NCBI GenBank assembly: GCA_947561715.1 | Contig: OX387200.1 | Coordinates: 560,501-624,500 of the forward strand | Length of the DNA stretch: 64,000 nt | Direction of reading: 5' to 3' | DNA from: Ascidia mentula | Lineage: Eukaryota > Chordata > Ascidiacea > Phlebobranchia > Ascidiidae | Shown: positions 1,896-57,687 of the stretch, piece after piece | How positions within the stretch are numbered: position 1 is the first letter of the stretch | Layout: each line of letters opens with the position of its first letter | Made by a program: the position numbers and the translations under genes | The notes under the pieces: model-generated | What the model was told of the DNA's origin: nothing | Databases searched by the model: none | The model's input: the letters and a program-made list of their open reading frames with translations, nothing else

Positions 1896-3884
1896 ATGCC
1901 ACAAGAAAATAACGCTGATGGTGTTTCGGTCGGTCAAGCTTTACTTTACACATTGGTAAGTTCGTTACCGCGTGATAATCACGATTAGTTTGTGCGAACA
2001 TCCTCAATGCTCGCAATGTAACTAGGCTTGTTTTTGACTAAAACCAAAAGTTTCAAGACAGAGAATAGTCAGTATGGTGCATTTAGTCCAGTGATTTTAA
2101 ATTTGCTTTAGCTGGATATTTTCAATTGAACTCATTATATTTTCGTCATTATCCACAAACAATGGAAACAACGCAGAGGTAACAACGATAAATCTAACAG
2201 ATTGGATTGTGACTAGGGGTCGGTTCACGGTAGCATTATTTACGCAATTGTGTCAATGGACTAGAAACTGCATACACAAGAATTCCGATTGTTGTATGCA
2301 AATATCGCTCACATGGCAACAAACCACACATAGCGCAGACTTTCTCCCAACTGAAATTGTGATCGTTTTATTTCAGGGTATCCTCCTGTTGGGGGTTTTC
2401 TTCCTTGTGGCGAAACAAAGGGCAACAGAAGGTGAGTTATAATTAAAGTTGTGTGACCCAAAACTCATTTATAATTGTGTTAACCTACCTTACATTTTGT
2501 GCGTATACAACACACAGCTATTAGGAAGTCTTGCGATGTTAGCATAAATTTCACACATAATTGTCACCTCAACTTGTTTTCTTTCATTTAAATAACAATT
2601 TTCAACGTTTCATTGTTTACTATTCTTGCCTTCACGGAACCAACACCCATGCAAGTAAAACTGACCTTTGTTGTCAACTTATCTCAAAGCACATCCGTAA
2701 ACTTTACTTTGTATTTTTGCTTTGTTTAATTCGTCTTATTCTACTTTATCAAAAGTTCTTTTTGAATATTGGAAATCATTTATTTGAAGTAAAGAGAAAA
2801 CCATCATGTACGTGTAACTGTTTATACTGCCAGACAAATATATTCCCAAAACTACTGTGGTTGAGGAGTCAAAAACCCACAATAAAGAGGAATTGGAACG
2901 ATTCGAAACATTGATCGACGAGGTCGGCTCACCGGATGTTCGGAGCAAACTTTCTACAATTGCCGAAAACTTGGGGGATGGTCATCAGGTGATGGCCGCG
3001 CTCTACGACTACGCAAAAATGTCCGCTATGTACCACGGCAGGTTGGTTAAAATAAATATATGCGTTTGTTGCTCTTGTGTCAACAAAGAACGAATGATGT
3101 AAAATCTCGGGCTATTACATATAGGGTCAACCATAAAGACTGGAACTTAGATGAATGGACCCAGTACGAACGGCTCAACGAAATGATGGCCAACGCACCA
3201 GCTTTACACAAACTGGATTTGGACGGGGTTTTTGATCACGCAGTGAAATTGCTCGAAGAAAACAAAACAATCGAATCCTTCTTCTTCACGAGGATCTGTT
3301 CCCACTTTTACAAGAACAAGGGACAGAACAAAATAGCGGTAGCGGGTTTGGAGCTTTGCGCAAAAATTGACCACCTTCTTGTTGAGAGAATGATGAAAAT
3401 TGATCCGACCCGTTTTAAACCGATCATTCAACACGTGGTGATTCCCCTAATGCGTTCCCAGCTTGCCGTCTTGCAGAACATAAAGATCGTGGACTACGAG
3501 TACAGGTTCGAGGCTGATATCACGTGTATGCATTACATTGGCCTGTGTCAGTCCGAAATAGACCAAATGTGGACTCAATCAAAGACCCTCGAGGCAGCCA
3601 TCAAATACTTTGAGGGAAAATTGGGAAAATCTGCCTTCAAATATCAAATTCACGCAATCAACCTCTTCAATTACGGTCTGCGATTAAAAGGTAGGGGAGA
3701 ATACCGCGAAGCACTTCCCATATTCGAGAAGGCGTTGAGCGTTTACGAGAACGCCGGGGACTTCAGTGATGAAAAGGATCGAAGAAATCACATCGCGGCG
3801 ACTGAGAAAAAGTTGAAAGAAGTTCGAGAAGTGGTTCGACTTCTGAATGAACAAGAAATAAAAAAGAAGAAGTCTGATCTGTGA
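1896..3884 (+). CDS. Membrane-anchored TPR-like protein, array copy 1
   Basis: Four coding exons: 1896-1955, 2377-2431, 2834-3041 and 3125-3884, all with GT-AG introns, giving 360 aa. The start is the ATG of MPQENNADG; the frame stays open across every junction. Residues about 14-33 (LLYTL joined to GILLLGVFFLV) form one hydrophobic segment followed by KQR, so an N-terminal membrane anchor with the body in the cytosol is likely. The rest is helical; a TPR-like helix pair lies near the C-terminus (YGLRLKGRGEYREALPIFEKAL) and the protein ends in a basic tail, KKKKSDL. A 5' non-coding exon ending at 1493 (CAG/GTAAGG) and joining at 1855 is plausible and conserved in the other copies. I do not recognise the family; protein binding through the helical repeats is only an inference. 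Confidence 0.82.
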
Positions 3885-4051
3885 GCGCTGTGGGATGGAA
3901 TACATTTTATGTTAATTATGTTTTTAAATTGTTTTCGAAGCTCCTTCATTTACATCACGAGGTTTCCAACCGTGGTGCTGTTTGAAACCTTCATATATGC
4001 CACGAGCTTTCCTTGATACTCACTCTGGTAATCTATCCAATTATCGTTCAC

Positions 4052-4190
4052 CAGTGGTATAATGCCATATCGAGAGCATAACTTATTAATAATATTAGAT
4101 CCCCATTAAGAGTCAGACAGAATGTTTGTTTGCAGCATTCGTGGCGGACGTTCATTGGTTTGCAGCCACTGGGTGCTGCTATACCTTTAT
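4052..4190 (+). mobile_element. hAT-like MITE remnant, unit 1
   Basis: The stretch starts with CAGTGGT, the typical outer bases of hAT-type inverted repeats. It carries the same inner sequence (a GGCGGACG block, then a CACTGGGTGCTGCTATACC block) as the complete element at 18099-18211. Its far end is missing and the LINE fragment follows directly. Equivalent remnants lie at about 8725-8863 and 13398-13540. Confidence 0.4.
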
Positions 4191-4257
4191 TCATTCCGCT
4201 GGGGCTTGCAATTGCAAAATATTCTACCCATAGCACGCGTAGTGTGGGGACGTGCCA

Positions 4258-4302
4258 GAAATGGCGGACGAGCCAAAAGTTACGCGCAAGTAGCATATAA
4301 AA
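4258..4302 (+). promoter_or_regulatory. LINE promoter-like head: YY1-like site and TATA box
   Basis: GAAATGGCGGAC at 4258-4269 matches the YY1 core (AAnATGGCGnC), a site known at the 5' end of L1-type elements. TATAAAA follows at 4296-4302, 11 bp before the ATG at 4313. The same block recurs in units 2 (offset 4673) and 3 (about 13594-13640). Activity is not shown by the sequence. Confidence 0.4.
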
Positions 4303-4312
4303 AGTCGGCCGA

Positions 4313-5600
4313 ATGGAGAATGCCAAACTGTCTAAGTTTCAAGGCGGAAGGCATTTTGAAAAGAGAAAATGCGTAAGAAACTCTTTATAATCTAAAGTAC
4401 TTAGTCAAAAAGCTTACTGGAATTGCTGAAATGAGGGGAAACTCTTTTGACATCACCTGTACATCCAGAGAACATGTGCTCGACCTATATGCAAAGCTTA
4501 GTACCCTTGAAGGGATAAAACACCTACGACTTTACGAAAGCGACAAAGTTAATGTCGCTGTAGGATGGGTTTTAGTGCCTTTCCAAACCAGGCAATAGCA
4601 GAAGAGTTGACAAAAAACATGGAAATGTCTCCAAGATGATACATCGTAAAGGAAGAGAAGGTTTGCTTTCAGGCATGCGTATCGCCACAATGAACGTATC
4701 CGACCTAGAAGATAACCCAATCCCAAGCTACATCAGAATAATGGACTGCGAATTTTATGTTACATACCATGGTCAGGTAGCAACCTGTAAATACTGCGGG
4801 GAAAACGGTAACAAACAATTCGTTTGCCCAAAACGTAAATTGGATTTCCCAGAGCTTGCAAACATTCAGTCACCAAAACGTTCAAACACAGAACTAAATC
4901 AAAAGCATGGTAACAAAAACCCTAGAGCGTCAGGTGAAACTTCGGAGCAACCTCTTAGGAAAAGGTGCGACTACAACTGATAAGAGTCCAAAGGGCGATG
5001 GTGCCAAAGTGCCAGACACAATTGCTGATCATAACTTAACCGATGAGTTCCAAGCCACGGAATCACCTCACGCAGTCACGCCCATTGATAACCACCAGAA
5101 AACGACCAACAAAAAACCCTGAAGACCTGCCTAAAAGTTAATTAGTCACTGCGAAAGTGATTTCTTTGAACTGTCCAGAATGTGAGGAGGAAATCTTGGT
5201 TTCCTCCAAATCTAAATCAACACGCTGCTGGGGATGCTCGAAAGAATGGACTGCAGCGGTACAATGTTGCAGAGATGAACTGTTCCTTGTGGAAGTGGGG
5301 AGTAAAGTCTGCAAATATCCGACATGTGGAAGCACAATGCGGCTTATGCCATGTTGCCAGGACTTCCAACCGGAATTCCGAAAGGAGGACGGCACCTTCG
5401 AATGTATCCAATGCGAAAGGTACTCTACCATATGTGTCTGTAACTCGATGAATCGCGTTCCTAAGTCAACGATGAGCATTGAGTGTTGTAATGCTGTGTG
5501 TAAACATAAAATAATTAACTGTGACTGTGGCAAAGTATTTGCGCAGCTTATAAACCCTGGCGAACGCTTTCGTTGTCCGTGCGGCATTGAATTTGAGTAG
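4313..5600 (+). pseudogene. LINE ORF1 remnant: zinc knuckle plus cysteine-rich end, unit 1
   Basis: The product resembles ORF1 proteins of the zinc-knuckle kind. An RRM-like front part is followed by the signature GLLSGMRI...IPSYIRI...YVTYHGQVATCKYCGENGN...C. The knuckle histidine seen in unit 3 (CKYCGEKGHEQLVC) is replaced by asparagine here, so zinc binding is probably lost. After a polar linker comes a separate region (about 5157-5600) with many paired cysteines (CPEC, CWGC, CKHK, CDCGK, FRCPCG). The reading frame is interrupted several times, so no full ORF1 is made. The cysteine-rich region alone is open for 147 codons. Confidence 0.65.
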
Positions 5601-6634
5601 GACATCGATATTGGACTGAAAAAATATTAAATAATGTTATAATTACGTCCCATATTGTTTCCTTTATTGTCAGGGGGCTAAACAAGACTATTAAACGAAA
5701 ATCTGTGTTTAACTTTCGCAATCCAGCTTGTGTAGCAAGAGAAAAAAGCAAATCGTCCCCCACCTGTCTATGTAAATTTTCTTTTTTTTTCAAGACCCAA
5801 AACCGCACAATAATTTCCACCCCAATATTTATATAACATTGATATCATAAGTTAAAGTACCCGTATAACCTTGTAGAAGGCTTGGTGCAAGTTATACAGA
5901 GCACTGGTTGTGGAAAACCAGCTGTGCATTTCATAATCACTGTGTCTGTTGATTTTGAGATCAAACTAATGTGATTCTTTTAATATAGTGCTCTGCAAAA
6001 ACAAGTAAACCCGAGGTTGTCATTCAAATGTTGGTTATTTGTTCTGCGAAACTATTTCGATCCACCCGGGCAGAAAGGATTACATAAACAATAACTTTCA
6101 GAAAAAATCAAGTTCCATCTCCAGCATTTGAATGCAAGTTTGAAAGTCGACGATGACGCATGTGGTTAAAAATTTACAGCATGCTGATGAAATAACTGTA
6201 TTTATAAAGTCAGTCAAGTAGTTTCGCTTCTCTGTCGCAACGATCCTGAACAAATGGTTCCTTTTTTACACACGGCGTCACACTCATTGTTATAGTGGGA
6301 AAGGAAAACATACGGGTAAGGTTATGAGATTTTAAAGATCGTTAAAAGGACGATGTGCCCCACATCCAGTTTGGTGAGGGTTTGTAATTAGGAAACAGTG
6401 TAACGGGAGATGACAGTTTACTTGTTCAAAATATTCTGTTAAGTTTAGTAGCAGATATATAATAAACACCAAGTCGTTGGTTTCATTTGTTACGTGGTTG
6501 TTGGTGCTTGTAAAGGACAGGGACGAAGGTTTGGGATATAACGTTCGTGCTCACAAACACAAAAGACACTTATTAAACCTCTGTTTTGTGCAGCAGTTAA
6601 AAAACAAAGGACACTATTTTCCCTGACGGAAAAT

Positions 6635-8556
6635 ATGCCACAAGAAAATAACGCTGATGGTGTTTCGGTCGGTCAAGCTTTACTTTACACATTGGTAAGT
6701 TCGTTACCGCGTGATAATCACGATTAGTTTGTGCGAACATCTCTAACGCTCGCAATGTAACTAGGCTTGTTTTTGACTGAAACCAAAAGTTTCAAGACAG
6801 AGAATAGTCAGTATGGTGCATTCAGTCCAGTGATTTTAAATTTGCTTTAGCTGGATATTTTCAATTGAACTCATTATATTTTCGTCATTATCCACAAACA
6901 ATGGAAACTTCGCAGAGGTAACAACGATAAATCTAACAGATTGGATAGGGACTAGGGGTCGGTTCACGGTAGCATTACTTACGGAATTGTGTGGCCACAA
7001 ACTGCATACAAAAGCATTCCGATTGTTGTATGCAAATATTGCTTACCTGGCAACAGACCGCACAGAGCGCAAACTTTCCCCTAACTGCAATTTTGTTATC
7101 GTTTTATTTCAGGGTATCCTCCTGTTGGGCGTTTTCTTCCTTGTGGCGAAACAAAGGGCAACAGAAGGTGAGTTATAATTAAAGTTGTGTGACCTAAAGC
7201 TCATTTATAATTGTGTTAACCTACCCTACGTTGTGTACGTATACAACAACACACAGCTATTAGAATTTGTCTCGCAATGTTAGCATAAATTTCACACATA
7301 ATTGTCACCTCAACTTGTTTTCTTTCATTTAAATAACAATTTTCAACGTTTAATTGTTTACTATTCTTGCCTTCACGGAACCAACACCCATGCAAGTAAA
7401 ACTGACCTTTGTTGTCAACTTATCTCAAAGCACATCAGTAAACTTTACTTTATTTTTGCTTTGTTTAATTCGTCTTTTCCTACTTCATCAAAATTTATTT
7501 TCGCCAGACAAATATATTCCCAAAAAAACGTTGGTTGAGAAGCCAAAAACCCACAATGAAGAGGAATTGGAACGATTCGAAACATTGATCGACGAGGTCG
7601 GCTCACCGGATGTTCGGAGCAAACTTTCTACAATTGCCGAAAACTTGGGGGATGGTCATCCGGTGATGGCCGCGCTCTACGACTACGCAAAAATGTCCGC
7701 TATGTATCACGACAGGTTGGTTAAAATAAATACATGCGTATGTTTCCCTTGTGTCAAGAAAGAACGAATGATGTAAAATCCCGGGCTATTATATAGGGTC
7801 AACCATAAAGACTGGAACTTAGATGAATGGACCCAGTACGAACGGCTCAACGCAATGATGGCCAACGCACCAGCTTTACACAAACTGAATTTGGAAGGGG
7901 TTTATGATCACGCAGTGAAATTGCTCGAAGAAAACAAAACAATCGAATCCTTCTTCTTCACAAGGATCTGTTCCCACTTTTACAAGAACAAGGGACAGAA
8001 CAAAATAGCGGTAGCGGGTTTGGAGCTTTGCGCAGAGATTGGCCGCCTTCTTGTTGAGAGAATGATGGAAATTGATCCGACCCGTTTTAAACCGATCATT
8101 CAACACGTGATGATTCCCCTAATGCGTTCCCAGCTTGCCGTCTTGCAGAACATAAAGATCGTAGACTACGAGTACAGGTTCGAGGCTGATGTCACGTGTA
8201 TGCATTACATTGGCCTGTGTCAGTCCGAAATACACCAAATGTGGACTCAATCAAAGACCCTCGAGGCAGCCATAAAATACTTTGAGGAAAAATTGGGAAA
8301 ATCTGCCTTCAAATATCAAATCCACGCAATTAATCTCTCCAATTACGGTCTGCGAGTAAAAGATAGGGGGGAATACCGCGAAGCACTTCCGATATTCGAG
8401 AAGGCGTTGAGCGTTTACGAGAACGCCGGAGACTACATTGATGAAAAGGATCGAAGAAATCACATCGCGACGACTGAGAAAAAGTTGAAAGAAGTTCGAG
8501 AAGTTGTTCGACTTCTGAATGAACAAGAAATGAAAAAGAAGAAGTCTGATCTGTGA
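6635..8556 (+). CDS. Membrane-anchored TPR-like protein, array copy 2
   Basis: Exons 6635-6694, 7113-7167, 7508-7715 and 7797-8556 encode 360 aa, with the same phases and boundaries as copy 1. The anchor (GILLLGVFFLVAKQR) and the C-terminal TPR-like pair are intact. Exon 4 belongs to the type-B sequence class shared with copy 4 (LNLEGV, FEEKLGK, LSNYGLRVKDRG), not to that of copy 1. The 5' region, exons 1 to 3, introns and the first part of exon 4 are identical to copy 3. No stop or frameshift is seen, so the copy is likely functional unless the array is an assembly product. Confidence 0.82.
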
Positions 8557-8862
8557 GCGCTGTGGGATGGAGATACATTTTGTGTTAATTATGTTTTTAA
8601 ATTGTTTTCGAAGCTCCTTCATTTACATCACGAGGTTTCCAACCGTGGTGCTGTTTGAAACCTTCATATATGCCACGAGCTTTCCTTGATGCTCACTCTG
8701 GTAATCTATCCAATTATCGTTCACCAGTGGTATAATGCCATATCGAGAGCATAACTTATTAATAATATTAGATCCCCATTAAGAGTCAGACAGAATGTTT
8801 GTTTGCAGCATTCGTGGCGGACGTTCATTGGTTTGCAGCCACTGGGTGCTGCTATACCTTTA

Positions 8863-10403
8863 TTCATTCCGCTGGGGCTTGCAATTGCAAAATATTCTAC
8901 CCATAGCACGCGTAGTGTGGGGACGTGCCAGAAATGGCGGACGAGCCAAAAGTTACGCGCAAGTAGCATATAAAAAGTCGGCCGAATGGAGAATGCCAAA
9001 CTGTCTAAGTTTCAAGGCGGAAGGCATTTTGAAAAGAGAAAATGCGTAAGAAACTCTTTATAATCTAAAGTACTTAGTCAAAAAGCTTACTGGAATTGCT
9101 GAAATGAGGGGAAACTCTTTTGACATCACCTGTACATCCAGAGAACATGTGCTCGACCTATATGCAAAGCTTAGTACCCTTGAAGGGATAAAACACCTAC
9201 GACTTTACGAAAGCGACAAAGTTAATGTCGCTGTAGGATGGGTTTTAGTGCCTTTCCAAACCAGGCAATAGCAGAAGAGTTGACAAAAAACATGGAAATG
9301 TCTCCAAGATGATACATCGTAAAGGAAGAGAAGGTTTGCTTTCAGGCATGCGTATCGCCACAATGAACGTATCCGACCTAGAAGATAACCCAATCCCAAG
9401 CTACATCAGAATAATGGACTGCGAATTTTATGTTACATACCATGGTCAGGTAGCAACCTGTAAATACTGCGGGGAAAACGGTAACAAACAATTCGTTTGC
9501 CCAAAACGTAAATTGGATTTCCCAGAGCTTGCAAACATTCAGTCACCAAAACGTTCAAACACAGAACTAAATCAAAAGCATGGTAACAAAAACCCTAGAG
9601 CGTCAGGTGAAACTTCGGAGCAACCTCTTAGGAAAAGGTGCGACTACAACTGATAAGAGTCCAAAGGGCGATGGTGCCAAAGTGCCAGACACAATTGCTG
9701 ATCATAACTTAACCGATGAGTTCCAAGCCACGGAATCACCTCACGCAGTCACGCCCATTGATAACCACCAGAAAACGACCAACAAAAAACCCTGAAGACC
9801 TGCCTAAAAGTTAATTAGTCACTGCGAAAGTGATTTCTTTGAACTGTCCAGAATGTGAGGAGGAAATCTTGGTTTCCTCCAAATCTAAATCAACACGCTG
9901 CTGGGGATGCTCGAAAGAATGGACTGCAGCGGTACAATGTTGCAGAGATGAACTGTTCCTTGTGGAAGTGGGGAGTAAAGTCTGCAAATATCCGACATGT
10001 GGAAGCACAATGCGGCTTATGCCATGTTGCCAGGACTTCCAACCGGAATTCCGAAAGGAGGACGGCACCTTCGAATGTATCCAATGCGAAAGGTACTCTA
10101 CCATATGTGTCTGTAACTCGATGAATCGCGTTCCTAAGTCAACGATGAGCATTGAGTGTTGTAATGCTGTGTGTAAACATAAAATAATTAACTGTGACTG
10201 TGGCAAAGTATTTGCGCAGCTTATAAACCCTGGCGAACGCTTTCGTTGTCCGTGCGGCATTGAATTTGAGTAGGACATCGATATTGGACTGAAAAAATAT
10301 TAAATAATGTTATAATTACGTCCCATATTGTTTCCTTTATTGTCAGGGGGCTAAACAAGACTATTAAACGAAAATCTGTGTTTAACTTTCGCAATCCAGC
10401 TTG
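8863..10403 (+). mobile_element. LINE fragment (Tx1/L1-like), unit 2, identical to unit 1
   Basis: By eye this copy matches the unit-1 fragment base for base at an offset of 4673. It has the same promoter-like head, ORF1 decay and ORF2 stub. The match includes every interruption, so both copies derive from an already broken element amplified with the array, not from two insertions. Confidence 0.75.
8986..10273 (+). pseudogene. LINE ORF1 remnant, unit 2
   Basis: Same content as the unit-1 remnant: RRM-like front, zinc knuckle with its histidine replaced, polar linker and a cysteine-rich end open from 9830 to 10273. The copy is non-coding as a whole because of the shared interruptions. Confidence 0.62.
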
Positions 10404-11307
10404 TGTAGCAAGAGAAAAAAGCAAATCGTCCCCCACCTGTCTATGTAAATTTTCTTTTTTTTTCAAGACCCAAAACCGCACAATAATTTCCACCCCAATA
10501 TTTATATAACATTGATATCATAAGTTAAAGTACCCGTATAACCTTGTAGAAGGCTTGGTGCAAGTTATACAGAGCACTGGTTGTGGAAAACCAGCTGTGC
10601 ATTTCATAATCACTGTGTCTGTTGATTTTGAGATCAAACTAATGTGATTCTTTTAATATAGTGCTCTGCAAAAACAAGTAAACCCGAGGTTGTCATTCAA
10701 ATGTTGGTTATTTGTTCTGCGAAACTATTTCGATCCACCCGGGCAGAAAGGATTACATAAACAATAACTTTCAGAAAAAATCAAGTTCCATCTCCAGCAT
10801 TTGAATGCAAGTTTGAAAGTCGACGATGACGCATGTGGTTAAAAATTTACAGCATGCTGATGAAATAACTGTATTTATAAAGTCAGTCAAGTAGTTTCGC
10901 TTCTCTGTCGCAACGATCCTGAACAAATGGTTCCTTTTTTACACACGGCGTCACACTCATTGTTATAGTGGGAAAGGAAAACATACGGGTAAGGTTATGA
11001 GATTTTAAAGATCGTTAAAAGGACGATGTGCCCCACATCCAGTTTGGTGAGGGTTTGTAATTAGGAAACAGTGTAACGGGAGATGACAGTTTACTTGTTC
11101 AAAATATTCTGTTAAGTTTAGTAGCAGATATATAATAAACACCAAGTCGTTGGTTTCATTTGTTACGTGGTTGTTGGTGCTTGTAAAGGACAGGGACGAA
11201 GGTTTGGGATATAACGTTCGTGCTCACAAACACAAAAGACACTTATTAAACCTCTGTTTTGTGCAGCAGTTAAAAAACAAAGGACACTATTTTCCCTGAC
11301 GGAAAAT

Positions 11308-13226
11308 ATGCCACAAGAAAATAACGCTGATGGTGTTTCGGTCGGTCAAGCTTTACTTTACACATTGGTAAGTTCGTTACCGCGTGATAATCACGATTAG
11401 TTTGTGCGAACATCTCTAACGCTCGCAATGTAACTAGGCTTGTTTTTGACTGAAACCAAAAGTTTCAAGACAGAGAATAGTCAGTATGGTGCATTCAGTC
11501 CAGTGATTTTAAATTTGCTTTAGCTGGATATTTTCAATTGAACTCATTATATTTTCGTCATTATCCACAAACAATGGAAACTTCGCAGAGGTAACAACGA
11601 TAAATCTAACAGATTGGATAGGGACTAGGGGTCGGTTCACGGTAGCATTACTTACGGAATTGTGTGGCCACAAACTGCATACAAAAGCATTCCGATTGTT
11701 GTATGCAAATATTGCTTACCTGGCAACAGACCGCACAGAGCGCAAACTTTCCCCTAACTGCAATTTTGTTATCGTTTTATTTCAGGGTATCCTCCTGTTG
11801 GGCGTTTTCTTCCTTGTGGCGAAACAAAGGGCAACAGAAGGTGAGTTATAATTAAAGTTGTGTGACCTAAAGCTCATTTATAATTGTGTTAACCTACCCT
11901 ACGTTGTGTACGTATACAACAACACACAGCTATTAGAATTTGTCTCGCAATGTTAGCATAAATTTCACACATAATTGTCACCTCAACTTGTTTTCTTTCA
12001 TTTAAATAACAATTTTCAACGTTTAATTGTTTACTATTCTTGCCTTCACGGAACCAACACCCATGCAAGTAAAACTGACCTTTGTTGTCAACTTATCTCA
12101 AAGCACATCAGTAAACTTTACTTTATTTTTGCTTTGTTTAATTCGTCTTTTCCTACTTCATCAAAATTTATTTTCGCCAGACAAATATATTCCCAAAAAA
12201 ACGTTGGTTGAGAAGCCAAAAACCCACAATGAAGAGGAATTGGAACGATTCGAAACATTGATCGACGAGGTCGGCTCACCGGATGTTCGGAGCAAACTTT
12301 CTACAATTGCCGAAAACTTGGGGGATGGTCATCCGGTGATGGCCGCGCTCTACGACTACGCAAAAATGTCCGCTATGTATCACGACAGGTTGGTTAAAAT
12401 AAATACATGCGTATGTTTCCCTTGTGTCAAGAAAGAACGAATGATGTAAAATCCCGGGCTATTATATAGGGTCAACCATAAAGACTGGAACTTAGATGAA
12501 TGGACCCAGTACGAACGGCTCAACGCAATGATGGCCAACGCACCAGCTTTACACAAACTGGATTTGGACGGGGTTTTTGATCACGCAGTGAAATTGCTCA
12601 AAGAAAACAAAACAATCGAATCCTTCTTCTTCACAAGGATCTGTTCCCACTTTTACAAGAACAAGGGACAGAACAAAATAGCGGTAGCGGGTTTGGAGCT
12701 TTGCGCAAAAATTGACCACCTTCTCGTTGAGAGAATGATGAAAATTGATCCGACCCGTTTTAAACCGATCATTCAACACGTGGCGATTCCCCTAATGCGT
12801 TCCCAGCTTGCCGTCTTGCAGAACATAAAGATCGTAGACTACGAGTACAGGTTCAAGGCTGATATCACGTGTATGCATTACATTGGCCTGTGTCAGTCCG
12901 AAATAGACCAAATGTGGACTCAATCAAAGACCCTCGAGGCAGCCATCAAATACTTTGAGGGAAAATTGGGAAAATCTGCCTTCAAATATCAAATTCACGC
13001 AATCAACCTCTTCAATTACGGTCTGCGATTAAAAGGTAGGGGAGAATACCGCGAAGCACTTCCCATATTCGAGAAGGCGTTGAGCGTTCACAAAAACGCC
13101 GGAGACTACATTGATGAAAAGGATCGAAGAAAAGACATCGCGACGACTGAGAAAAAGTTGGAAGAAGTTCGAGAAGTTGTTCGACTTCTGAATGAACAAG
13201 AAATAAAAGAGAAGTCTGATCTGTGA
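11308..13226 (+). CDS. Membrane-anchored TPR-like protein, array copy 3
   Basis: Exons 11308-11367, 11786-11840, 12181-12388 and 12470-13226 encode 359 aa, one residue shorter than the others because of a codon deletion in the basic tail (IKEKSDL). Exons 1 to 3 are identical to copy 2. After about position 12561 exon 4 switches to the type-A class of copy 1 (LDLDGVFDHAV, KIDHLLVERMMK, FEGKLGK, LFNYGLRLKGRG). Near the end it again has copy-2-like residues (GDYIDEKDRR). The gene is therefore a mosaic of two sequence classes. The frame is open throughout. Confidence 0.82.
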
Positions 13227-13539
13227 GCGCTGTGGGATGGAGATACATTTTGTGTTAATTATGTTTTTAAATTGTTTTCGAAGCTCCTTCATTGACAACA
13301 CGAGGTTTCCAACCGTGGTGCTGTTTGAAACCTTCATATATGCCACGAGCTTTCCTTGATGCTCACTCTGGTAATGTTTCCAATTATCGTTCACCAGTGG
13401 TGTAATTCCATATCGAGAGCATAACTTTTTAATGGTATTTAACCCCCATTAAAAATCAGACTGAGAGGCAGCATTTGTGGCGGACGCTCATTGGTTTGTC
13501 GCCACTGGGTGCTGCTATACCTTTATTCATTCCGCTGGG

Positions 13540-15068
13540 GCATTGCAATTGCAAAATATTCTGCTCATAGCACGCGTAGTGTGGGGACGTGCCAGAAATG
13601 GCGGATAAGCCAAAAGTTACGCGCAAGTAGCATATAAAAAGTCGGCCAAATGGAGAATGCCAAACTGTCTAAGTTTCAAGGCGGAAGGCATTTTGAAAAG
13701 AGAAAATGCGTAAGAAACTCTTTATAATCTAAAGTACTTAGTCAAAAGCTTACTGTAATTGCTGAAATGAGAGGAAACTCTTTTGACATCACCTGTACAT
13801 CCAGAGAACATGTGCTCGACCTATATGCAAAGCTTAGTACCCTTTAAGGGGTAAAACACCTTCGACTTTACGAAAGTGAAAAAGTTAATGTCGCTGTAGG
13901 ATGGGTTTTAATGCCCTTTCCAAACCAGGCAATAGCAGAAGAGTTGACAAAAAAAATATGGGAATGTTTCCAAGATGATGCATCGTAAAGGAAGAGAAGG
14001 TTTGCTTTCAGGCATGCGTATCGCCACAATGAACGTATCCGACCTAGAAGATAACCCAATCCCAAGCTACGTCAGAATAATGGACTGCGAATTTTATGTT
14101 ACCTACCATGGACAGGTAGCAATCTGTAAATACTGCGGGGAAAAGGGCCACGAACAATTAGTTTGCCCAAAACGTAAATTGGATTTCCCAGAGCTTGCAA
14201 ATATTCAGTCACTAAAACGTTCAAACACAGAACTAAAGCATTTGCATGCTGGAGCGATAGGTGCAACTCTGGAGCAACCTGATAGGAAAAGGTGCGACTA
14301 CAACTGATAAGAGTCCAAAGGGCGAGAGTGCCAAAGTGCCAAACACAATTGTTGATCACAACTTGAACGATGAGTTCCAAGCCACGGAATCACCTCACGC
14401 AAGCACGCCCATCGATAAGCGGACCACCAGAAAACGACCAACAAGAAGCCCTGAACACCTGCCTAAAAGCAAGTCAATTAGTCTTTGCGAAAGTGTGATT
14501 TCTTTGAACTGTCCAGAATGTAAAGAGGAAATCTTGGCTTCCTCCAAATCTAAATCAACACGCTGCTGGGGATGCTCGAAAGAATGGACTGTGGCGGTAC
14601 AATGTTGCAGAGATGAACTGTTCTTTGTGGAAGTGGGGAGTAAAGTCTGCAAATGTCCGACATGTCAAAGCACAATGCGACTTACGCCATGTTGCCAGGA
14701 CTTTCAACCGTAATTCCGAAAGGAGGACGGCACCTTCGAATGTAACCAATGCGAAAGGTACTCTATCATATGTGTCTGTAACTCGATGAATCGTTTTCCT
14801 AAGACAACGATGAGCATTGAGTGTTGTAATGCTGTGTGTAAACATAAAATAATTAACTGTGACTGTGGTCAAGTATTTGCGCAGCTTATAAACCCTGGCG
14901 AACACTTTCGTTGTCCGTGCGGCATGGAATTCGAGTGGGATATGGATATTGGACTGAAAAAATATTAAATAATGTTATAATGACGTCCCATATTGTTTCC
15001 TTTATTGTCAGGGGGCTAAACAAGACTATTAAACGAAAATCTGTGTTTAACTTTCGCAATCCAGCTTG
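13540..15068 (+). mobile_element. LINE fragment (Tx1/L1-like), unit 3, diverged
   Basis: Same structure as in units 1 and 2, but with many point and small length differences, so it separated earlier. Here ORF1 ends with a TAA at 14966-14968 and the ORF2 ATG follows at 14980, an 11-base gap that shows the two-ORF order of the parent LINE. ORF2 again stops being recognisable after about 25 codons. A GA-rich simple repeat (about 15109-15148) follows. Confidence 0.73.
13650..14968 (+). pseudogene. LINE ORF1 remnant, unit 3, best preserved
   Basis: This copy keeps an intact CCHC zinc knuckle (CKYCGEKGHEQLVC, near 14130). The linker and the first half of the cysteine-rich region run in one frame (14261-14713), which shows that knuckle and cysteine-rich end once belonged to one protein. 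It still has several frame interruptions and cannot encode a full ORF1. The C-terminus (FEWDMDIGLKKY) is longer than in units 1 and 2. Confidence 0.65.
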
Positions 15069-16049
15069 TATAGCAAGAGAAAAAAGCAAATCGTACCCGA
15101 CTTGTCTGCGTGAGAGAGAGAGAAAGAAAGAGAGAGAAAAGAGAAAAAAGCAAATCGTACCCGACCTGTCTATGTAAATTTTCTTTTTTTTTCCAAGACC
15201 CAAAACCGCACAATAATCTCAACCTCAAGATTTCTATAACATTGAAATCAAACGTTACAGTACTCGTATAACCTTGTAGAAGGCTTGGTGCAAGTTATGC
15301 AGAGCGCTGGTTTTGGAAAACCAGCTGTGCATTTCATAATCACTGTGTCTGTTGATTTTGTGAGCAAACTAATGTGATTCTTTTAATATAGTTCTCTGGA
15401 AAAACAAGGGCGTATTAAACCCGAGGTTGTCATTCAAATGTTGGTTATTTCTTCTGCGAAACTATTTCGAACCACCCAGGCGAAAGGATTACAAGGAAAA
15501 TAACCTTTGCAGGAAAGATAACAAATCAAGTTCCATCTCCAGCATTTGAATGCAAGTTTGAAAGTCGACGATGACGCATGTGGTTAAAAATTTACAGCAT
15601 GCTGATGAAATAACTGTATTTATAAAGTCAGTCAAGTAGTTTCGCTTCTCTGTCGCAACGATCCTGAACAAATGGTTCCTATTTTACACACGGCGTCACA
15701 CTCATTGTTATAGTGGGAAAGGAAAACATACGGGTAAGGTTATGAGATTTTAAAGATCGTTAAAAGGACGATGTGCCCCACATCCAGTTTGGTGAGGGTT
15801 TGTAATTAGAAAACGGTATAACGGGAGATGACAGTTTACTTGTTCAAAATATTCTGATAAGTTTAGTAACAGATATGTAATAAATCCCAAGTCGTTGGTT
15901 TCATTTGTTATGTGGTTGGTGCTTGTAAAGGAAAGGGACGAAGGTTTGGGTTATAATGCTCGTGCTCACAAACACAAAAGACACTTATTAAATCCCTCTT
16001 TTGTGCAGCAGTTAAAAAACAAAGAACACTATTTTCCCTGGCGGAAAAT

Positions 16050-17931
16050 ATGCCACAAGAAAATAACGCTGATGGTGTTTCGGTCGGTCAAGCTTTACTT
16101 TACACATTGGTAAGTTCGTAACCGCGTGATAATCACCATTAGTTTGTGCGAACATCTCTAACGCTCGCAATGTAACTAGGCTTGTTTTTGACTGAAACCA
16201 AAAGTTTCAAGACAGAGAATAGTCAGTATGGTGCATTCAGTCCAGTGATTTTAAATTTGCTTTAGCTGGATATTTTCAATTGAACTCATTATATTTTCGT
16301 CATTATCCACAAACAATGGAAACTTCGCAGAGGTAACAACGATAAATCTAACAGATTGGATAGGCACTGTAGGGGTCGGTTCACGGTAGCATTATTTACG
16401 CAATTGTGTCAATGGACTAGAAACTGCATTCAAAAGCATTTCGACTGGTTTGTGCAAATATTGCTTACCGGGCAACAGACCGCACAGAGCGCAAACTTTC
16501 CCCCAACTGAAATTGTGATCGTTTTACGTTCAGGGTATTCTCCTGTTGGGGGTTTTCTTGCTTGTGGCGAAACAAAGGGCAACAGAAGGTGAGTTAACCT
16601 ACCTTACATTTTGTGCGTATACAACACACAGCTATTAGGAAGTCTTGCGATGTTAGCATAAATTTCACACATAATTGTCACCTCAACTTGTTTTCTTTCA
16701 TTTAAATAACAATTTTCAACGTTTCATTGTTTACTATTCTTGCCTTCACGGAACCAACACCCATGCAAGTAAAACTGACCTTTGTTGTCAACTTATCTCA
16801 AACCACATCAGTAAACTTTACTTTGTATTTTTGCTTTGTTTAATTCGTCTTATCCTACTTTATCAAAATTTCTTTTCGCCAGACAAATATATTCCCAAAA
16901 AAACGTTGGTTGAGGAGCCAAAAACCCACAATGAAGAGGAATTGAAACGATTCGAAACATTGATCGACGAGGTCGGCTCACCGGATGTTCGAAGCAAACT
17001 TTCTACAATTGCCGAAAACTTGGGGGATGGTCATCCGGTGATGGCCGCGCTCTACGACTACGCAAAAATGTCCGCTATGTATCACGGCAGGTTGGTTAAA
17101 ATAAATATATGCGTATGTTTCCCTTGTGTCAACAAAGAACGAATTATGTAAAATCTCGGGCTATTATATAGGGTCAACCATAAAGACTGGAACTTAAATG
17201 AATGGACCCAGCACGAACGGCTCAACGAAATGATGGCCAACGCACCAGCTTTACACAAACTGAATTTGGAAGGGGTTTTTGATCACGCAGTGAAATTGCT
17301 CGAAGAAAACAAAACAATCGAATCCTTCTTCTTCACAAGGATCTGTTCCCACTTTCACAAGAACAAGGGGCAGAACAAAATAGCGGTAGCGGGTTTGGAG
17401 CTTTGCACAAAGATTGACCGCCTTATCGTTGAGAGAATGATGGAAATTGATCCGACCCGTTTTAAACCGATCATTCAACACGTGGTGATTCCCCTAATGC
17501 GTTCCCAGCTTGCCGTCTTGCAGAACATAAAGATCGTAGACTACGAGTACAGGTTCGAGGCTGATGTCACGTGTATGCATTACATTGGCCTGTGTCAGTC
17601 CGAAATAGACCAAATGTGGACTCAATCAAAGACCCTCGAGGCAGCCATCAAATACTTTGAGGAAAAATTGGGAAAATCTGCCTTCAAATATCAAATCCAC
17701 GCAATTAATCTCTCCAATTACGGTCTGCGAGTAAAAGATAGGGGGGAATACCGCGAAGCGCTTCCGATATTCGAGAAGGCGTTGAGCGTTTACGAGAACG
17801 CCGGAGACTTCAGTGATGAAAAGGAACGAAGAATTCACATCGCGACGACTGAGAAACTGTTGAAAGAAGTTCGAGAAGTTGTTCGACTTCTGAATGAACA
17901 AGAAATGAAAAAGAAGAAGTCTGATCTGTGA
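16050..17931 (+). CDS. Membrane-anchored TPR-like protein, array copy 4
   Basis: Exons 16050-16109, 16534-16588, 16883-17090 and 17172-17931 encode 360 aa. The membrane segment has one conservative change (GVFLLV for GVFFLV). Exon 4 is type B, like copy 2. Private changes include QHERLNEM for QYERLNEM, HFHKNKGQ for HFYKNKGQ and TEKLLKEV for TEKKLKEV. This last unit lacks the LINE fragment, so its 3' flank differs from those of the other copies. All splice sites are canonical GT-AG. Confidence 0.82.
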
Positions 17932-19475: not shown

Positions 19476-32987
<13,512 letters not shown>

Positions 32988-36750: not shown

Positions 36751-37472
36751 GATACAAGAAGACAACATTCCAAATGCATAGTTTTAATTTATGACATCAC
36801 AATCACAACAACACAAAAAACAATCAGATTATTAGACAAACAATGAAAACACACTTTAATTGTTTGTTTCGAAACACTGCATGGATTTTAAATCTGAGGT
36901 GGAGTCTTGTTTAATTTTTGTTACTCTGACACAAAAGTGCATTCTACAGAAAAATAAATATGACAAACCCTGAACACACGTTTTATCTTCAAAATTTGGT
37001 TCCACAACAGTCATTGCTCAAACAATCCAAGCAATAATATTGAGGTGTGAGAAAACCAATACAATGTATTAACTTCAACAAATATTTTTTGTTTAAAAAT
37101 ATGCTGATCTTGCAACAAAGACTTTTTCAAAACTCACCAAGTTAAAAAATAAAAACACAGCTTTAAGTCCAACAACAATGTTTTGCGTACAGGGCCTAAA
37201 ACGAACTTGAAAATCTCCAAGGACATATTTCATGTAGAAGTATGTTGAAAGTGTTAAGCATTTCACCTAATACTTGGGTAAGTTGAAGAGAGATTAAAAA
37301 AATCACAGCAAACGTAAATCATAAAATTTTCTACGCTTCAAGTTAAATCACACGGAAACAGATTTTTTTTACTTTTATGGAAGACGCCATGGTGGTTACT
37401 ATAAATACTTTTCTTATGGAGACAATTTCCACACATTATCTAAAAACATAATTCCACAATAAAATTATTTGC

Positions 37473-40400
37473 TTATAACTTGGCAAGCAGGTCTTCTGAG
37501 TCTGCGTGTGCATCGCGGTCATCCTTGTTGTTGCATGGCAACTTGAGGGCGCTCTCGAGCCACTTTCGGCAATTCGCATAATCGCTCATTTCATAAAAAC
37601 ACTGTAATGGAAATGGTTTTTATTATACATGTTCATTTGAGTAATTTAATAATTGTTCTCTTCAAAGACAAAATGTCACTGGCATTAACAGTTTTGAGTG
37701 TTTGGTTTTGACATTTTTAAATTATGAAATTTGCTTCTGGAAGTTAAAAACATTCGTTGCTTGAAGAGTTTGAAATAAAAGTAATTGACAATTTTTTTGA
37801 CCAATAACTGAGCCCAATCACATTTCCACAAGAAAACATAAGCAACCTTGGCTATATAATACTGGTTGGACTTGTAAAACCCAGGTTGTATCCGTTCAGC
37901 TTTATCGAAAGATTCAAGAGCATCTTGTACAGTAGCAGTAGGTGGAGTAGCGAACAAGGTGGCAGCTAATTTGCGCTCAATCCACGTCAACATGTAAACA
38001 CCTGAACAAATAACATTATAACTAGAAATTACGTTCTATCCAACTTTATGAATCTAAAAGCAACATAGCCAATAATAGTTTTGAGCTGCAGACAGGGCCA
38101 CTTCGATTTAAGATGTCTCAACAGGGCAGCTTTGGTGTAAGTTGTAACATCTTGTAAGCTAAATATCCAAGCCAGACTTCAGCAGTCTTCGTGAGCCACA
38201 CCAAGGCTGCACTGATGTAATCTATTAGGTTGAAACTATGGCCCTGTCTGCAGTCCATTATAAGAAATATACCATCCGTACATAACAATATATCAACAAC
38301 AATTTGTAGCATTTGAACTTTCAAGGATGCCCAGTCACGTTTTAGCAAGTTGCACTTATTTATGGCAACAGTAATAGACCATGACCATAATGAACTGCTG
38401 ATGATTTTGCTCCTCACCCCAACACCATCTCCCTTTCATAAAGTGCAGTGTAGGATCATCTGGGCACAACTCAAGTGCTCTGTCAATGTGTTCTTTCAAC
38501 TCATAACCGATTTCAATCTTTTCTTTGGTTCCCACAAAATCTGTGTTAGCTCCTAAACTAATCACATACCTGAGAACAAAGTCGGTCATCACAATGTTTG
38601 CTTACATGAAAAGGGTATTTACTGGTAAAAGTGAAAAAACAATTAACAAATATTTTGTTCGACCATTAGCGATAATTTTTAAACTTTATTTTTGGAATTA
38701 ATTTTAAAGAATATTGATAACATTACACTGTGGGAATCACAAAAATGTATTTACACAAAATTTGATGTTAATAGAATGATTTCCCCAGCCTAAGATAAGT
38801 TTAGGTCTGGCACTCAATGGGTTTATGCAAAGAATATGAAATAAAGTGCCAGAGCTTTCTTGCAATCATTAGAATTTGTTATGTTTTAAACCCCAGTAGA
38901 AATCCCATGATATAAGTAATGTTACTTCTATATTAACCACAAGTATGAAACACATTACATAAAGTTAATGAGTTGCCCAGACATCAAAAGTTGACCTTAA
39001 TCTTATCTCCTATGTCAGCTGGCTACAAAGGTTATGACACTTTGAGCAGCCCTTGATCCTTTGTGAATGATAAACAAACTATTTTACACAACAACAACGA
39101 ATTCTACTTACTAACCGCACCTCTGACATGAATTTTTTAATCAAATATTTACAGTAGCTAACTCACCATTTATGAACGTCAGCTGATTCTTCACAAAGTT
39201 CAAGTGCTTGCTTTGCATACTCCACTGCAGTAGTGGCATGAAGACAACGTTCGTCGTATGCTGTCCTGACATCGTAAGCTCCAACATGGGAGCGACTCAA
39301 TCGCCAAAGTAGTTGCCAAGAATTTTTATGCTGTAACAAAAAGTTGGGATAAAAACGGATGCACAGAATATCTTGAATCAAGTTTAGTTGACAATAAAAT
39401 CCCACAAAAGTTTACAATGCACATTAATACAATTAATACAAACTTTATTGTATAAACAAATAAAGATGCAGACCTTTCAAAAAACTATGTTTTCTTGCAA
39501 ATATATTAAAATCCACAACAAAAAGTAGACTAATACTAACTGTAAGTGTAGACACATAAAAAATAATGGTTTTTACATTAACATTCATTTCATTATCCTG
39601 AAGTATCCTCATTGCTTCTTCTTGATCTTCCTCTGTTCCTTCACTGAGATAATCAACCTTCACACAAATTGCATCAAGCTCTTCTTTGGAACCAGGGGCT
39701 GGTTGGTTAGAATTTGCATCAACGTTGTTTTCCAAATGATCCAAAGCAATGCTGGAAATCAAACCAAGTTTTCAAGCAAAGTTAGGAATTATGATTCCAA
39801 ATGCTAACATGCTCCAGATTAAATAATTTAAACAGATTGTTTCAAGATTGTTTATCTTGGTTCTATGACCAAGTATATTCACATCTATATATCAAACTGT
39901 AATTGTGAAAACAAGATTAAACACTATTTTAAATTTTTCAAAACCTTATGAAACCCAAATGCAAGGAATTTCTGTGGTTGGCAGTATTAGTAACATTTGA
40001 AAAACACCTAATTGGACATACTCAAAATCCCCATCGGAAAGATCGTCATCGTCATAGTCACTGTAGGCTGTTTGATAACTTCCAGTTGTCCTAGTTGATG
40101 CAACCGAACGTGTTGTGTGTGTTGATCTGCTTCGACGTACTCTGTGGCACCAACATAACATGAAGTACTCCTATCAAACTACATTTTCAGTTCTGCATGA
40201 AATAACCTTTTTGAATCAACCAGCCCTTGTATTCCACCAAGTTCTTTGCGGAGCTCTGTTACAGCATTTGACAGATTGTTTTTAAGCGCCACAATTTCCT
40301 GTTTCAACTCCTGGATTTGTCGCAACAATTCCTCGTCAGTTTGTCTGGCTGTTGGACGAGTTAAATGCCAGTAGCTGCACAAAAATAAGTGTTCACTCTA

Positions 40401-41034
40401 TCTTATCACATATATACTTTATATGTATGTATATAAATATTTTAAATAATCATACCTCAATTCGAAGTGAAAAGGTAACATTCAATACAAACTGATACTA
40501 TTAACAGACAAGCCCTACCATGCGCAAAAGAGCCATAATAGTCAATGAGAGCTGCAGACAGGTGAACACACTGTTTTGAACTGTAAGGTCTCATCAGTGC
40601 AGCTGGTGACCGTGGCGCATGCTACCTGGTAGACTAGCAGGCATACCAAGTTGGTATATACCTAGTTTGGTACCCAACATATCGACGATTGACCGAAAGG
40701 TGCCACAAAGTGGAAATCTGTGTGCCTGCTAATCTACCAGGTAGCACAGTGCCACATCAACAGCTGCACTGATGAGACGTTACAGGTTAAAACCATTATG
40801 GCTCTTTTGCGCATATAATATGATTTGGGTGAAAGCCGAACCGATAGCGCTATTCGATCTCCAACCCTAATATAAGTATATTTCCCAACAAGACAGTTTA
40901 AATGCAGGTAATAACTTGTAACAAACTTACCGTATCACTGCACATGTTGCCACACCACCTCCTACAAAAACAGTTAATCCAATCCCGATGTACTTCAAAG
41001 TGCTCCGATCTGATAAGCTCATAATAGAAGACAT
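37473..41034 (-). CDS. RMDN3: Regulator of microtubule dynamics protein 3 (PTPIP51-like)
   Basis: Eight coding exons on the minus strand: 41034-40931, 40374-40207, 40141-40022, 39751-39577, 39330-39167, 38569-38418, 38001-37847 and 37601-37473; 388 aa, phases consistent. Residues about 15-34 form an N-terminal membrane segment, 45-85 a coiled coil, 112-118 (SYQTAYS, followed by an acidic run) a possible phospho-FFAT motif, and about 190-385 TPR-type helices. Diagnostic matches to human RMDN3 are ESADVHKWY, GRWCW, ATVQDALESF and IQPGF. Human RMDN3 sits in the outer mitochondrial membrane and binds ER VAP proteins, making contact sites for lipid and calcium exchange. It lies downstream of YEATS4 on the same strand, 291 bp away. 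RMDN1/2 are less likely because of the anchor and acidic insert. Confidence 0.92.
38086..38253. repeat. Foldback (hairpin) element in an RMDN3 intron
   Basis: CTGCAGACAGGGCCA (38086-38100) is the exact reverse complement of 38239-38253. Inside, GCAGCTTTGGTGT (38126-38138) pairs with 38198-38210 with one mismatch. The arms are about 55 bases and imperfect, the loop about 60. It shares the CTGCACTGATG core with two other sites in the window (40520-40814 and 46049-46108). Confidence 0.7.
40520..40814. repeat. Foldback (hairpin) element in the first RMDN3 intron
   Basis: The outer 20 bases, 40520-40539, are the perfect reverse complement of 40795-40814. A second perfect pair of 16 bases is 40590-40605 with 40761-40776 (CAGCTGCACTGATGAG). 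A third arm pair around CTACCTGGTAGA lies further in. The result is a long hairpin of about 295 bp, typical of a foldback MITE; no transposase is present. Confidence 0.75.
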
Positions 41035-41325
41035 TGTGACACATAAACTTAAAGGAAAAGAACGGTTCCTATTTATACATGTTTCTGCCTAGTTGAATAA
41101 CTAGATGCAGTGCTTACCTGTATGACAAAAAGCAGATTAATCTAAAAAATGTAGCAGTGCAGAAATAACTCATGCAGTTCTTAAAAAAAAAAAAAAAAAA
41201 ATTGGCCATTTTCTGCACAATCAGAAATAAAGGTGCAATTTTAGCATGTTTTAACATCAGTTTAGCACACAAAGGCAGTAAAGATTACCAATGACAAAGA
41301 TTTAACTAAATCACATAAGAAAATT
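41035..41325 (-). other. Short spacer between YEATS4 and RMDN3
   Basis: 291 bp between the YEATS4 stop and the RMDN3 start. I find no AATAAA on the minus strand here. A T-run (an A-run of about 18 on the plus strand, near 41180) and a pyrimidine stretch ending in CAG near 41119 could be a splice or trans-splice acceptor for the downstream message. Confidence 0.4.
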
Positions 41326-42015
41326 TCAGGTCATTTCAGAATTGTCTTGTTCTTGTTCAAGTTTCTTAATTTCCTCCCGAAAACTTTTGATGTTGTCCCT
41401 GCTTTGCTTCAATCTTTCTTTAAGGTCCTTTATTTCCAACTGAATCTTCTGTTTTGCGCTCGTAAGTTGCTTGATAGTTTGCTGTTCCTTCTCATCAAAG
41501 TCTGTCTCATGCTTGTGTGCTCCAAGAGTAAGTTGTCGACAGCTTGTCAAGAGGGAATGCATCATTACAGAGGGGTCTTGGAAAATCATTTCATCATAGT
41601 TTTCCGATACAACAGTTTTCTTGCTCAATAGCAAGGTGCTTTCAGTTTGAAAAAGCCGCAATGGATGATATATAGTTAGTGGCCTTTCACCAGTATCATG
41701 AAAAAATATTTTGATGACAACATCAAACTGACCCCAACCTGTTTCTGTGACCTCATAAGGAGGCTTTGTGACGACACGCAAAGGGTTTGCGTAGCTTTCG
41801 TGCAGTTTAAACTGAATTTTCTTCACATACACAGAGATGTCCTCATTGTGGTACGGTTTTAAATAGACCGTCCATGAATGCGTATGGCCGTCTTCTTCAC
41901 GCTTTTTACCGAAATAGCGAGCTGAATTTCCATAAACAATCGGTTTTACGATGCATATTCCTTTCATGCGACCCCCGCTCTCTGTCACAAATTCGCCACC
42001 AGTATTTCTATTCAT
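41326..42015 (-). CDS. YEATS4: YEATS domain-containing protein 4 (GAS41), intronless
   Basis: A single exon of 229 aa (human protein 227). The YEATS domain runs from about residue 10 to 140, with [41 protein letters not shown] and ETGWG, almost as in human. The C-terminal third (about 165-229) is a charged coiled coil. The protein reads acetylated or crotonylated histone tails and belongs to the TIP60/p400 and SRCAP complexes that deposit H2A.Z. The frame stays open 38 codons upstream, to 42129, but that extension matches nothing in the family. I chose the ATG of MNRNTGG at 42015 because it gives the family length. The gene may be co-transcribed with RMDN3. Confidence 0.95.
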
Positions 42016-42284
42016 GGTGTTGTCGTAAACTTCTTCACAACAAACGTGCAAAACCACAAACCTTTGAAACTTACCGGCGTTTTGGAAGCGATTTCTATTG
42101 TACAAAACACGAAAATAATAGTTAAACATTTTTGTCTGTTTTGTATTTTGTATTATTACAATCGTTGTTAATGGCCCAACGATTTCATAATTGTTATTGT
42201 GCTAGTAAAATACTCCTCAAATAAGTAGTATTTTTTGTTTTACTTTATTCCGCTTGTTGAATTCACGCAAGAACGCACACGACA

Positions 42285-57291: not shown

Positions 57292-57687
57292 TAATTGTTT
57301 CTTCAGGGGGCGTTTTTGTTCTGCTCCGTTGGAGTTCAGATAACCGCATTTGAAGGTTTTTTGGACTTCAGTTGAATTGAATATTTGAGTATAAGTGAGT
57401 TGGTTGTTGGCTGGGTGCCGAGTATGTTTATAAATTTTTGTCAAAGTAAACTTTGAACCAATTGTGCTCATGTAGGCTGTAAGCCTCAAGAACAGGTTTA
57501 GTCAAAATACGTAGGAATCGAATACTTGCTTTGTATATTTGGCACTTTTTAACATTGAATTACGATTGGAACGTTTATTTGCATGGCAAATTAGGTGTCA
57601 TGTAGGCAAGGTTGAAAATAGTTGATTGTGCGTCAAACAGTTTTGTACTTATTAACGATTTATTTGTTGTTGTCTGTTTTAGTGCTT

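Follow-up and report, generated by a model that had tools for sequence, protein, structure and literature searches.

Non-kinase parts described for RIPK proteins comprise RHIM, death domain, CARD, ankyrin, LRR/Roc-COR and WD40, and the amphioxus partners also include ZU5 and Zalpha, among others, according to the accessible parts of two surveys (PMC9573974, PMC11507063). Amphioxus RIPKs are reported to be duplicated, with 14 copies in one clade (PMC9573974), and a RIPK2 of Ciona intestinalis is named (PMC11507063). Neither "TPR" nor "tetratricopeptide" occurs in the main text of either survey (PMC9573974, PMC11507063). The accessible part of a placozoan study describes lineage-specific NLRs, which are NACHT/NB-ARC proteins with C-terminal WD40 or tetratricopeptide repeats (TPR), and reports no RIPK1/2 orthologue there (PMC6321704). 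A literature search that covered few subscription papers found no ascidian RIPK-TPR family, and this speaks only weakly for novelty. The closest living relatives of the vertebrates are the tunicates, and it is an open question how recognition is diversified in animals other than jawed vertebrates. Here we describe four tandem genes at positions 1896 to 17931 of a 64,000-nucleotide stretch of the Ascidia mentula genome (contig OX387200.1, chromosome 4, positions 560501-624500; called C67 below), the whole of which is referred to as the window. Their last exon encodes a TPR domain related to TPR exons that in many cases stand behind RIPK-like kinases elsewhere in the genome, and their products may be membrane-tethered, kinase-less members of that TPR family.

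The array consists of four direct repeats on the plus strand, spaced 4.67-4.74 kb apart, with one gene per repeat. The genes span 1896-3884 (copy 1), 6635-8556 (copy 2), 11308-13226 (copy 3) and 16050-17931 (copy 4). Exon lengths were 60, 55, 208 and 760 nt in copies 1, 2 and 4, and the last exon measured 757 nt in copy 3. In copy 1, exon 1 (1896..1955) encodes the N-terminus and the start of the membrane segment (MPQENNADGVSVGQALLYTL) and had no variable site among the four copies. Exon 2 (2377..2431) encodes the remainder of the membrane segment followed by KQR, exon 3 (2834..3041) a linker and an extra N-terminal part, and exon 4 (3125..3884) the TPR domain. The corresponding exons were located at 6635..6694, 7113..7167, 7508..7715 and 7797..8556 in copy 2, at 11308..11367, 11786..11840, 12181..12388 and 12470..13226 in copy 3, where the TPR exon is shortened in frame by 3 bp, and at 16050..16109, 16534..16588, 16883..17090 and 17172..17931 in copy 4. 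Intron phases were common to the four copies and all introns were GT-AG; the acceptor of exon 2 reads GTTCAG in copy 4 and TTTCAG in copies 1-3. The products are 360 residues long (359 in copy 3), that is 361 codons including the stop (360 in copy 3), with no internal stops. A reading of the window made from its sequence alone had claimed four intact tandem copies with a common four-exon structure, common phases, about 360 codons and no internal stop, and the gene models bear this out.

The same sequence-only reading regarded the protein as belonging to no recognised family, and proposed protein searches and structure prediction as a check. Exon 4 of copy 2, taken as a single copy, reached 26.1 bits against Pfam TPR_12, under the cut-off of 30.1, and a scan of 25 family members, among them the four copies, gave a TPR_12 match at E <= 0.1 for every one. 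In an AlphaFold2 model of exon 4 of copy 2, for which the frame started at 7777 and the first six residues are intron-derived, the chain was all-helical (predicted local distance difference test, pLDDT, 86; predicted template modelling score, pTM, 0.81). It formed four helix pairs and a C-terminal helix, arranged in the antiparallel helix-pair stack of TPR proteins. The TPR chains of NASP and KLC1 were among the best structural matches and 14-3-3 chains scored alike; the VIA structural list consisted mainly of 14-3-3 and NASP chains at like Z, and no single family was singled out. The nearest solved relative by phmmer was the TPR domain of kinesin light chain (KLC1, E 3.3e-4). Kinesin light chain was also the best Foldseek match, with 12-16% identity in the KLC1/KLC2 rows, and the best stretch of the profile on KLC chains covered positions 166-221 of 252 only. 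An NCBIfam scan of three TPR exons gave no match. The domain is thus identified as TPR, and with the further genome matches given below the protein can no longer be called familyless.

We searched the A. mentula genome (195.8 Mb, 79 contigs) for relatives of exon 4. The best 147 of 256 candidate TPR exons and the best 127 of 361 candidate kinases were scored, and the totals of TPR exons and kinases are therefore lower bounds. At least 147 matches were found, comprising the four copies (91-100% identity) and at least 143 others (21-30%), the weakest listed at E 1.7e-8. A profile built without the window copies recovered all four of them among 3532 frames (E 1e-32 to 4e-35), and in the reverse test, over the same frames, a profile of the four copies only found the other tested members, with values up to 1.7e-22. 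The array thus carries a homologue of the C-terminal TPR exon of the kinase-TPR family, and the comparison of sequences gives strong support for placing exon 4 in a large TPR family of this genome. In a tree the window copies formed a deep branch (support 100/100, length 3.59) whose neighbouring placement was unsure (93/40) and carried a long-branch warning. Some relatives elsewhere are broken and contain stops. At locus L077 (C70:9015800-9019600) the TPR domain ends a long single frame, of 772 codons in the fetched stretch and 856 in the genome search; the part before the TPR domain looks disordered, and the locus has its own long branch in the tree. The chromosome of the window carries another TPR exon cluster (L078-L081, C67:19.94-19.97 Mb), which likewise forms a deep branch and has no listed kinase within 20 kb upstream.

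The family is linked to protein kinases. At locus L039 on contig C69 the TPR exon lies downstream of a protein kinase exon (Pkinase, 4.6e-31), whose closest relatives among solved structures were RIPK1, RIPK4, RIPK2 and RIPK3. The kinase exon of L075 matched Pkinase at 1.2e-27; L075 and L076 have the kinase-then-TPR order too, with short open frames between that resemble linker exons. At L040 and L076 the TPR exon is also preceded by several short open frames rich in Q, some ending in QTG, which look like repeated linker exons. With the L039 kinase exon as query, at least 127 kinase places were found in the genome. A listed kinase on the same strand was present within 10 kb upstream of 54 of the 147 TPR exons and within 5 kb of 39, and on C69 it lay 0.8-1.8 kb upstream of 22 of 28. 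Of the 127 kinases, 54 were followed within 15 kb downstream by a same-strand TPR exon as the nearest listed element and 19 by another kinase; for the other 54 no element was listed over that distance, and a TPR exon on the opposite strand never came next. In the C69 comparison, which covers the kinase beyond its first exon, DFG and APE were retained in 16 of 16 kinases and the catalytic loop read HDDLKPEN in 14, HYDLKPEN in one and HDDLKLEN in one (HDD in 15 of 16). Two kinases outside C69 had SGD and HGD in the loop. Neither tblastn nor a profile search found a kinase of this kind in the window or the 10 kb upstream of it, and none of the eight TPR exons on C67 had a listed kinase within 20 kb upstream. 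We therefore regard the array as kinase-less, and the window copies do not contain the protein kinase domain that marks RIPK family members.

The kinase and TPR exons of C69 differ in conservation. Ratios of nonsynonymous to synonymous change (dN/dS) on C69 were 0.87 (bootstrap 0.63-1.19) for 19 intact TPR exons and 0.27 (0.19-0.36) for 16 kinase exons. Within the TPR codons the ratio was 1.80 (1.10-3.18) in A helices, 0.63 (0.37-1.11) in B helices, 0.65 (0.31-1.39) in the C-terminal helix and 0.42 (0.20-0.90) elsewhere. Most of the residues that diversify on C69 fall in alternate TPR helices (A1-A4) or in the final helix. This split between A and B helices was first noticed in C69, and the C2 and window sets serve as replication. 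Mean entropy in A and B helices was 0.632 vs 0.285 in C69 (P 5e-5), 1.094 vs 0.599 in 14 sequences of C2/C71 (P 5e-5) and 0.171 vs 0.060 among the copies of the array (P 0.012). Variability was also seen in the last helix (0.576, 1.315 and 0.205, respectively). Site entropies of the C69 and C2 sets were correlated (rho 0.36, P 5e-9); for the window copies the correlation with both sets was weak (rho 0.16, P 0.014). One-sided clustering of variable sites within helices, at P < 0.05 uncorrected for nine helices, was seen in A1 and A2 of C69 and in A1-A4 and the C-terminal helix (0.025) of C2, and in no B helix of either set. Judged from these codon comparisons, a conserved kinase together with varied alternate TPR helices is what a recognition surface undergoing diversification would show.

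The proteins of the array have one strong hydrophobic segment, LLYTLGILLLGVFFLVA, with a 17-residue Kyte-Doolittle mean of 2.59; the best value past residue 45 was 1.53 (copy 1). By hydropathy a single N-terminal membrane anchor is likely. An acidic N-terminus precedes the segment and KQR follows it, and these flanks favour a cytosolic C-terminus, that is, a cytosolic TPR body. The earlier description of an N-terminal anchor on a locally amplified helical-repeat body is supported by the hydrophobic segment and by the TPR model. Exons 1-3, searched as protein, matched only the four copies in the genome. Their derivation from the RMDN gene of the window, compared by eye only, found no support. 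The C-terminus of all four copies is a basic stretch followed by SDL, an ending which we take to fit the form of a class I PDZ ligand.

Copies 2 and 3 show a pattern of their own. Their introns do not differ over 839 bp, and 4019-7887 is identical to 8692-12560, with 0 differences over 3.87 kb. The identity block lies only upstream of the differing stretch of exon 4 (7888..8539, plus strand), which holds 33 sites and one gap. In the codon alignment the pair showed 24 nonsynonymous and 10 synonymous differences, all within exon 4. The sequence-only reading had argued from altered introns and flanks around a conserved protein. In copies 2 and 3 this is false and the argument fails, the pair showing the reverse pattern. 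The pair would be explained by a tandem duplication of very recent date, accompanied within the TPR exon by exchange or unequal crossing over, and its signal amounts to one event.

Constraint among the four copies was modest. Coding sequences differed by one indel (3 bp, in frame) over 1080 ungapped columns, and introns by 10 over 789 columns, a contrast that sets the coding sequence apart and goes beyond chance. Variable columns numbered 67 of 1080 in coding sequence, 69 of 789 in introns and 66 of 696 upstream; by exon they were 0 of 60, 3 of 55, 12 of 208 and 52 of 757. Pairs of copies differed at 28-48 coding sites. When copy 1 was substituted at random, the probability of no stop was 0.28 with 31 changes, 0.18 with 41, 0.15 with 45 and 0.047 with 75. 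Open frames alone are weaker evidence, as a stop-free outcome by chance is not very rare. Across the six pairs dN/dS (NG86) was 0.40-0.79, and the synonymous excess was significant (Fisher P < 0.05) in two, 1-2 and 1-4. The anchor exons 1-2 had at most one nonsynonymous change per pair. Selection on the protein had been claimed, with a count of synonymous and nonsynonymous changes as its check; the count agrees as far as a modest synonymous excess and weak purifying selection overall, but significance was reached in two of six pairs only. The genes are most likely coding and under modest purifying selection.

We propose that the array represents membrane-tethered, kinase-less members of an ascidian RIPK-TPR repertoire, with a groove held on the membrane as co-receptor or decoy, a reading on which we stand evenly divided. 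The A helices of TPR proteins line a concave groove. Because it is these helices that diversify, the family would read varied ligands in the groove, and its members may bind varied peptides or proteins there, the position of the groove being taken from general knowledge of TPR proteins and not from coordinates. Kinase-bearing members would convert ligand binding into signalling; a constant signalling kinase combined with a variable groove is, we infer from sequence, how a recognition receptor is built. The array suggests a transfer of this groove to a membrane, with no kinase attached. Its proteins would hold the groove at the cytosolic membrane face by the N-terminal signal-anchor and would act by capturing the same class of ligand or by pairing with kinase-bearing relatives, and the copies may diversify through tandem duplication and exchange inside the TPR exon. 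A wider proposal, made with rather more doubt than confidence, is that A. mentula has a germline-diversified intracellular repertoire of TPR grooves. It would comprise well above 100 TPR exons, many of them joined to RIPK-like kinases of the non-RD type; its groove helices would be under positive selection, its copies would exchange sequence within the TPR exon, and the array described here would be its membrane-tethered, kinase-less co-receptor or decoy arm. If true, hypervariable alternate TPR helices behind a conserved RIPK-like kinase would link recognition by repeats to the kinase family on which vertebrates rely in inflammation and cell death.

Several points weigh against these proposals. 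Identity is low, at 22-24%, and the tree carries the long-branch warning. A listed kinase within 10 kb upstream is found for only 54 of the 147 TPR exons, and for 42 nothing at all is listed within 15 kb upstream; as scoring covered the best candidates only, kinases may have been missed. A kinase also lies downstream of 40 of 147 TPR exons within 10 kb, and of 20 within 5 kb, as tandem clusters would give. Several deep branches of the family seem kinase-less, and the kinase link may not be ancestral. In the one-face test A3 (0.061) and A4 (0.19) of C69 were not significant, nor was any helix of the window set. Among the window copies the proportion of nonsynonymous differences (pN) was 0.047 in A helices and 0.016 in B helices, but that of synonymous differences (pS) was 0.072; since change in the A helices falls below the synonymous level, positive selection is shown for the C69 relatives and not for this array. 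The dN/dS values are pairwise NG86 averages that ignore recombination, which the pattern of copies 2 and 3 suggests for the array, and the helix labels come from the window exon model and were carried to C69 and C2 by alignment, without coordinates. Exon 1 is modelled on conservation and splice sites, and the excess conservation of exons 1-2 over introns was not significant for copies 1-4 (P 0.15).

The main rival explanation is a housekeeping adaptor of the mitochondrial or endoplasmic reticulum surface, like Tom70 or RMDN, amplified by chance and outside recognition and immunity. The sequence-only reading, too, had seen in the protein the build of an organelle-surface adaptor. Organelle adaptors of this kind have a short N-terminal signal-anchor, basic residues next to it and a cytosolic TPR body, and the array has the same build; dN/dS below 1 in all six pairs and the near absence of nonsynonymous change in the anchor exons also suit such a protein. 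We nevertheless consider it unlikely. Three frames, those of exon 4 in copy 1, exon 4 in copy 2 and one containing exon 3 of copy 2, gave no match to Pfam RMD1-3 at E <= 1, although this model does recognise a genuine RMDN exon in another part of the window, and the kin of the array are TPR exons that are in part kinase-linked and diversifying. Exon 4 is also slightly more variable than exons 3, 2 and 1, a small difference.

The genes may instead be a young array under relaxed constraint and on the way to pseudogenes, with open frames kept mostly through recency. This would fit the dN/dS values of up to 0.79, the four of six pairs not significantly below 1, the stop-free outcome that is not very rare by chance at 45 changes, the near identity of copies 2 and 3 outside exon 4 and the broken relatives elsewhere in the family. 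It is rendered improbable by the single in-frame coding indel against ten in introns, by the retention of all splice sites and by the significant synonymous excess in pairs 1-2 and 1-4. More improbable still is that copies 2 and 3 are partly a product of assembly, by haplotype switch or false duplication in a heterozygous animal, so that the true units number three. Identity of units 2 and 3 over 3.87 kb would be expected from such an error, but the units are separated by 33 sites and a gap within exon 4, and HiFi reads as usually made span a whole 4.7-kb unit. According to the accessible part of its description, the deposited assembly represents one haplotype and is incompletely phased, which leaves room for the error, but it was built from 74-fold HiFi data, which speak against it (PMC11109543).

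Other features of the window were as follows. The spacers between the TPR genes contain a Cys-rich frame of a dispersed repeat at 5142..5597 (plus strand), 9815-10270 and 14492-14935 (with one stop). It had 58 matches in the genome, the three spacers included, some in open frames of 454-466 codons, and is probably a mobile element. A dispersed repeat of about 100 bp within intron 1, at about 2120-2224, had eight more matches outside the array. On the minus strand, a true RMDN gene at 37440-41088 matched Pfam RMD1-3 (E 3.5e-13 at 37688-38035); inspection by eye showed further exons, a hydrophobic N-terminal one (40930-41088) and, near 40011-40170, an acidic stretch that may be FFAT-like. Also on the minus strand are a YEATS domain gene at 41329-42201 (Pfam E 3.5e-31), presumably GAS41-like, and two B-box-type zinc fingers at 31686-32633 (E about 1e-7), presumably of a TRIM-like gene. 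Long open frames with what may be a PROX-like N-terminal region occupy 57622-60442 on the plus strand; two of them, 58493-59143 and 59525-60439, were scanned and matched nothing in Pfam at E <= 0.01. Immediately before the window, C67:551000-560900 (L043) encodes a sushi domain (E 8.4e-6) and has a weak secretin-type seven-helix match (E 0.0017, under the Pfam cut-off), and is presumably adhesion-GPCR-like.

RMDN proteins have an N-terminal anchor followed by a TPR-like helical body, and in this build the array resembles them. Membership was considered for this reason and was ruled out by the lack of an RMD1-3 match in the frames named above. Kinesin light chain, the best phmmer (KLC1) and Foldseek relative of exon 4, shares a weak TPR similarity; it differs in that identity is 12-16% in the Foldseek rows, in that the best profile stretch is short and in that the array has an N-terminal hydrophobic anchor. 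Placozoan NLRs are likewise intracellular repeat-domain proteins in lineage-specific sets, as far as the accessible part of their description goes (PMC6321704). Here, in contrast, the TPR exon is partnered by a RIPK-like one, none of the scanned kinase and TPR exons matched NACHT/NB-ARC, and the diversified element is the TPR helices, with signs of positive selection. The RIPK1-5 group is approached by the kinase-bearing relatives of the array, not by the array itself, in a kinase closest to RIPK1, RIPK4, RIPK2 and RIPK3 that is followed by a C-terminal interaction domain. The HDD/HYD loops of the C69 kinases are non-RD, and RIPK1 and RIPK2 are non-RD too. The window proteins differ from this group in being without a kinase, and their kinase-bearing relatives differ from it in carrying TPR, which lies outside the described partner domains.

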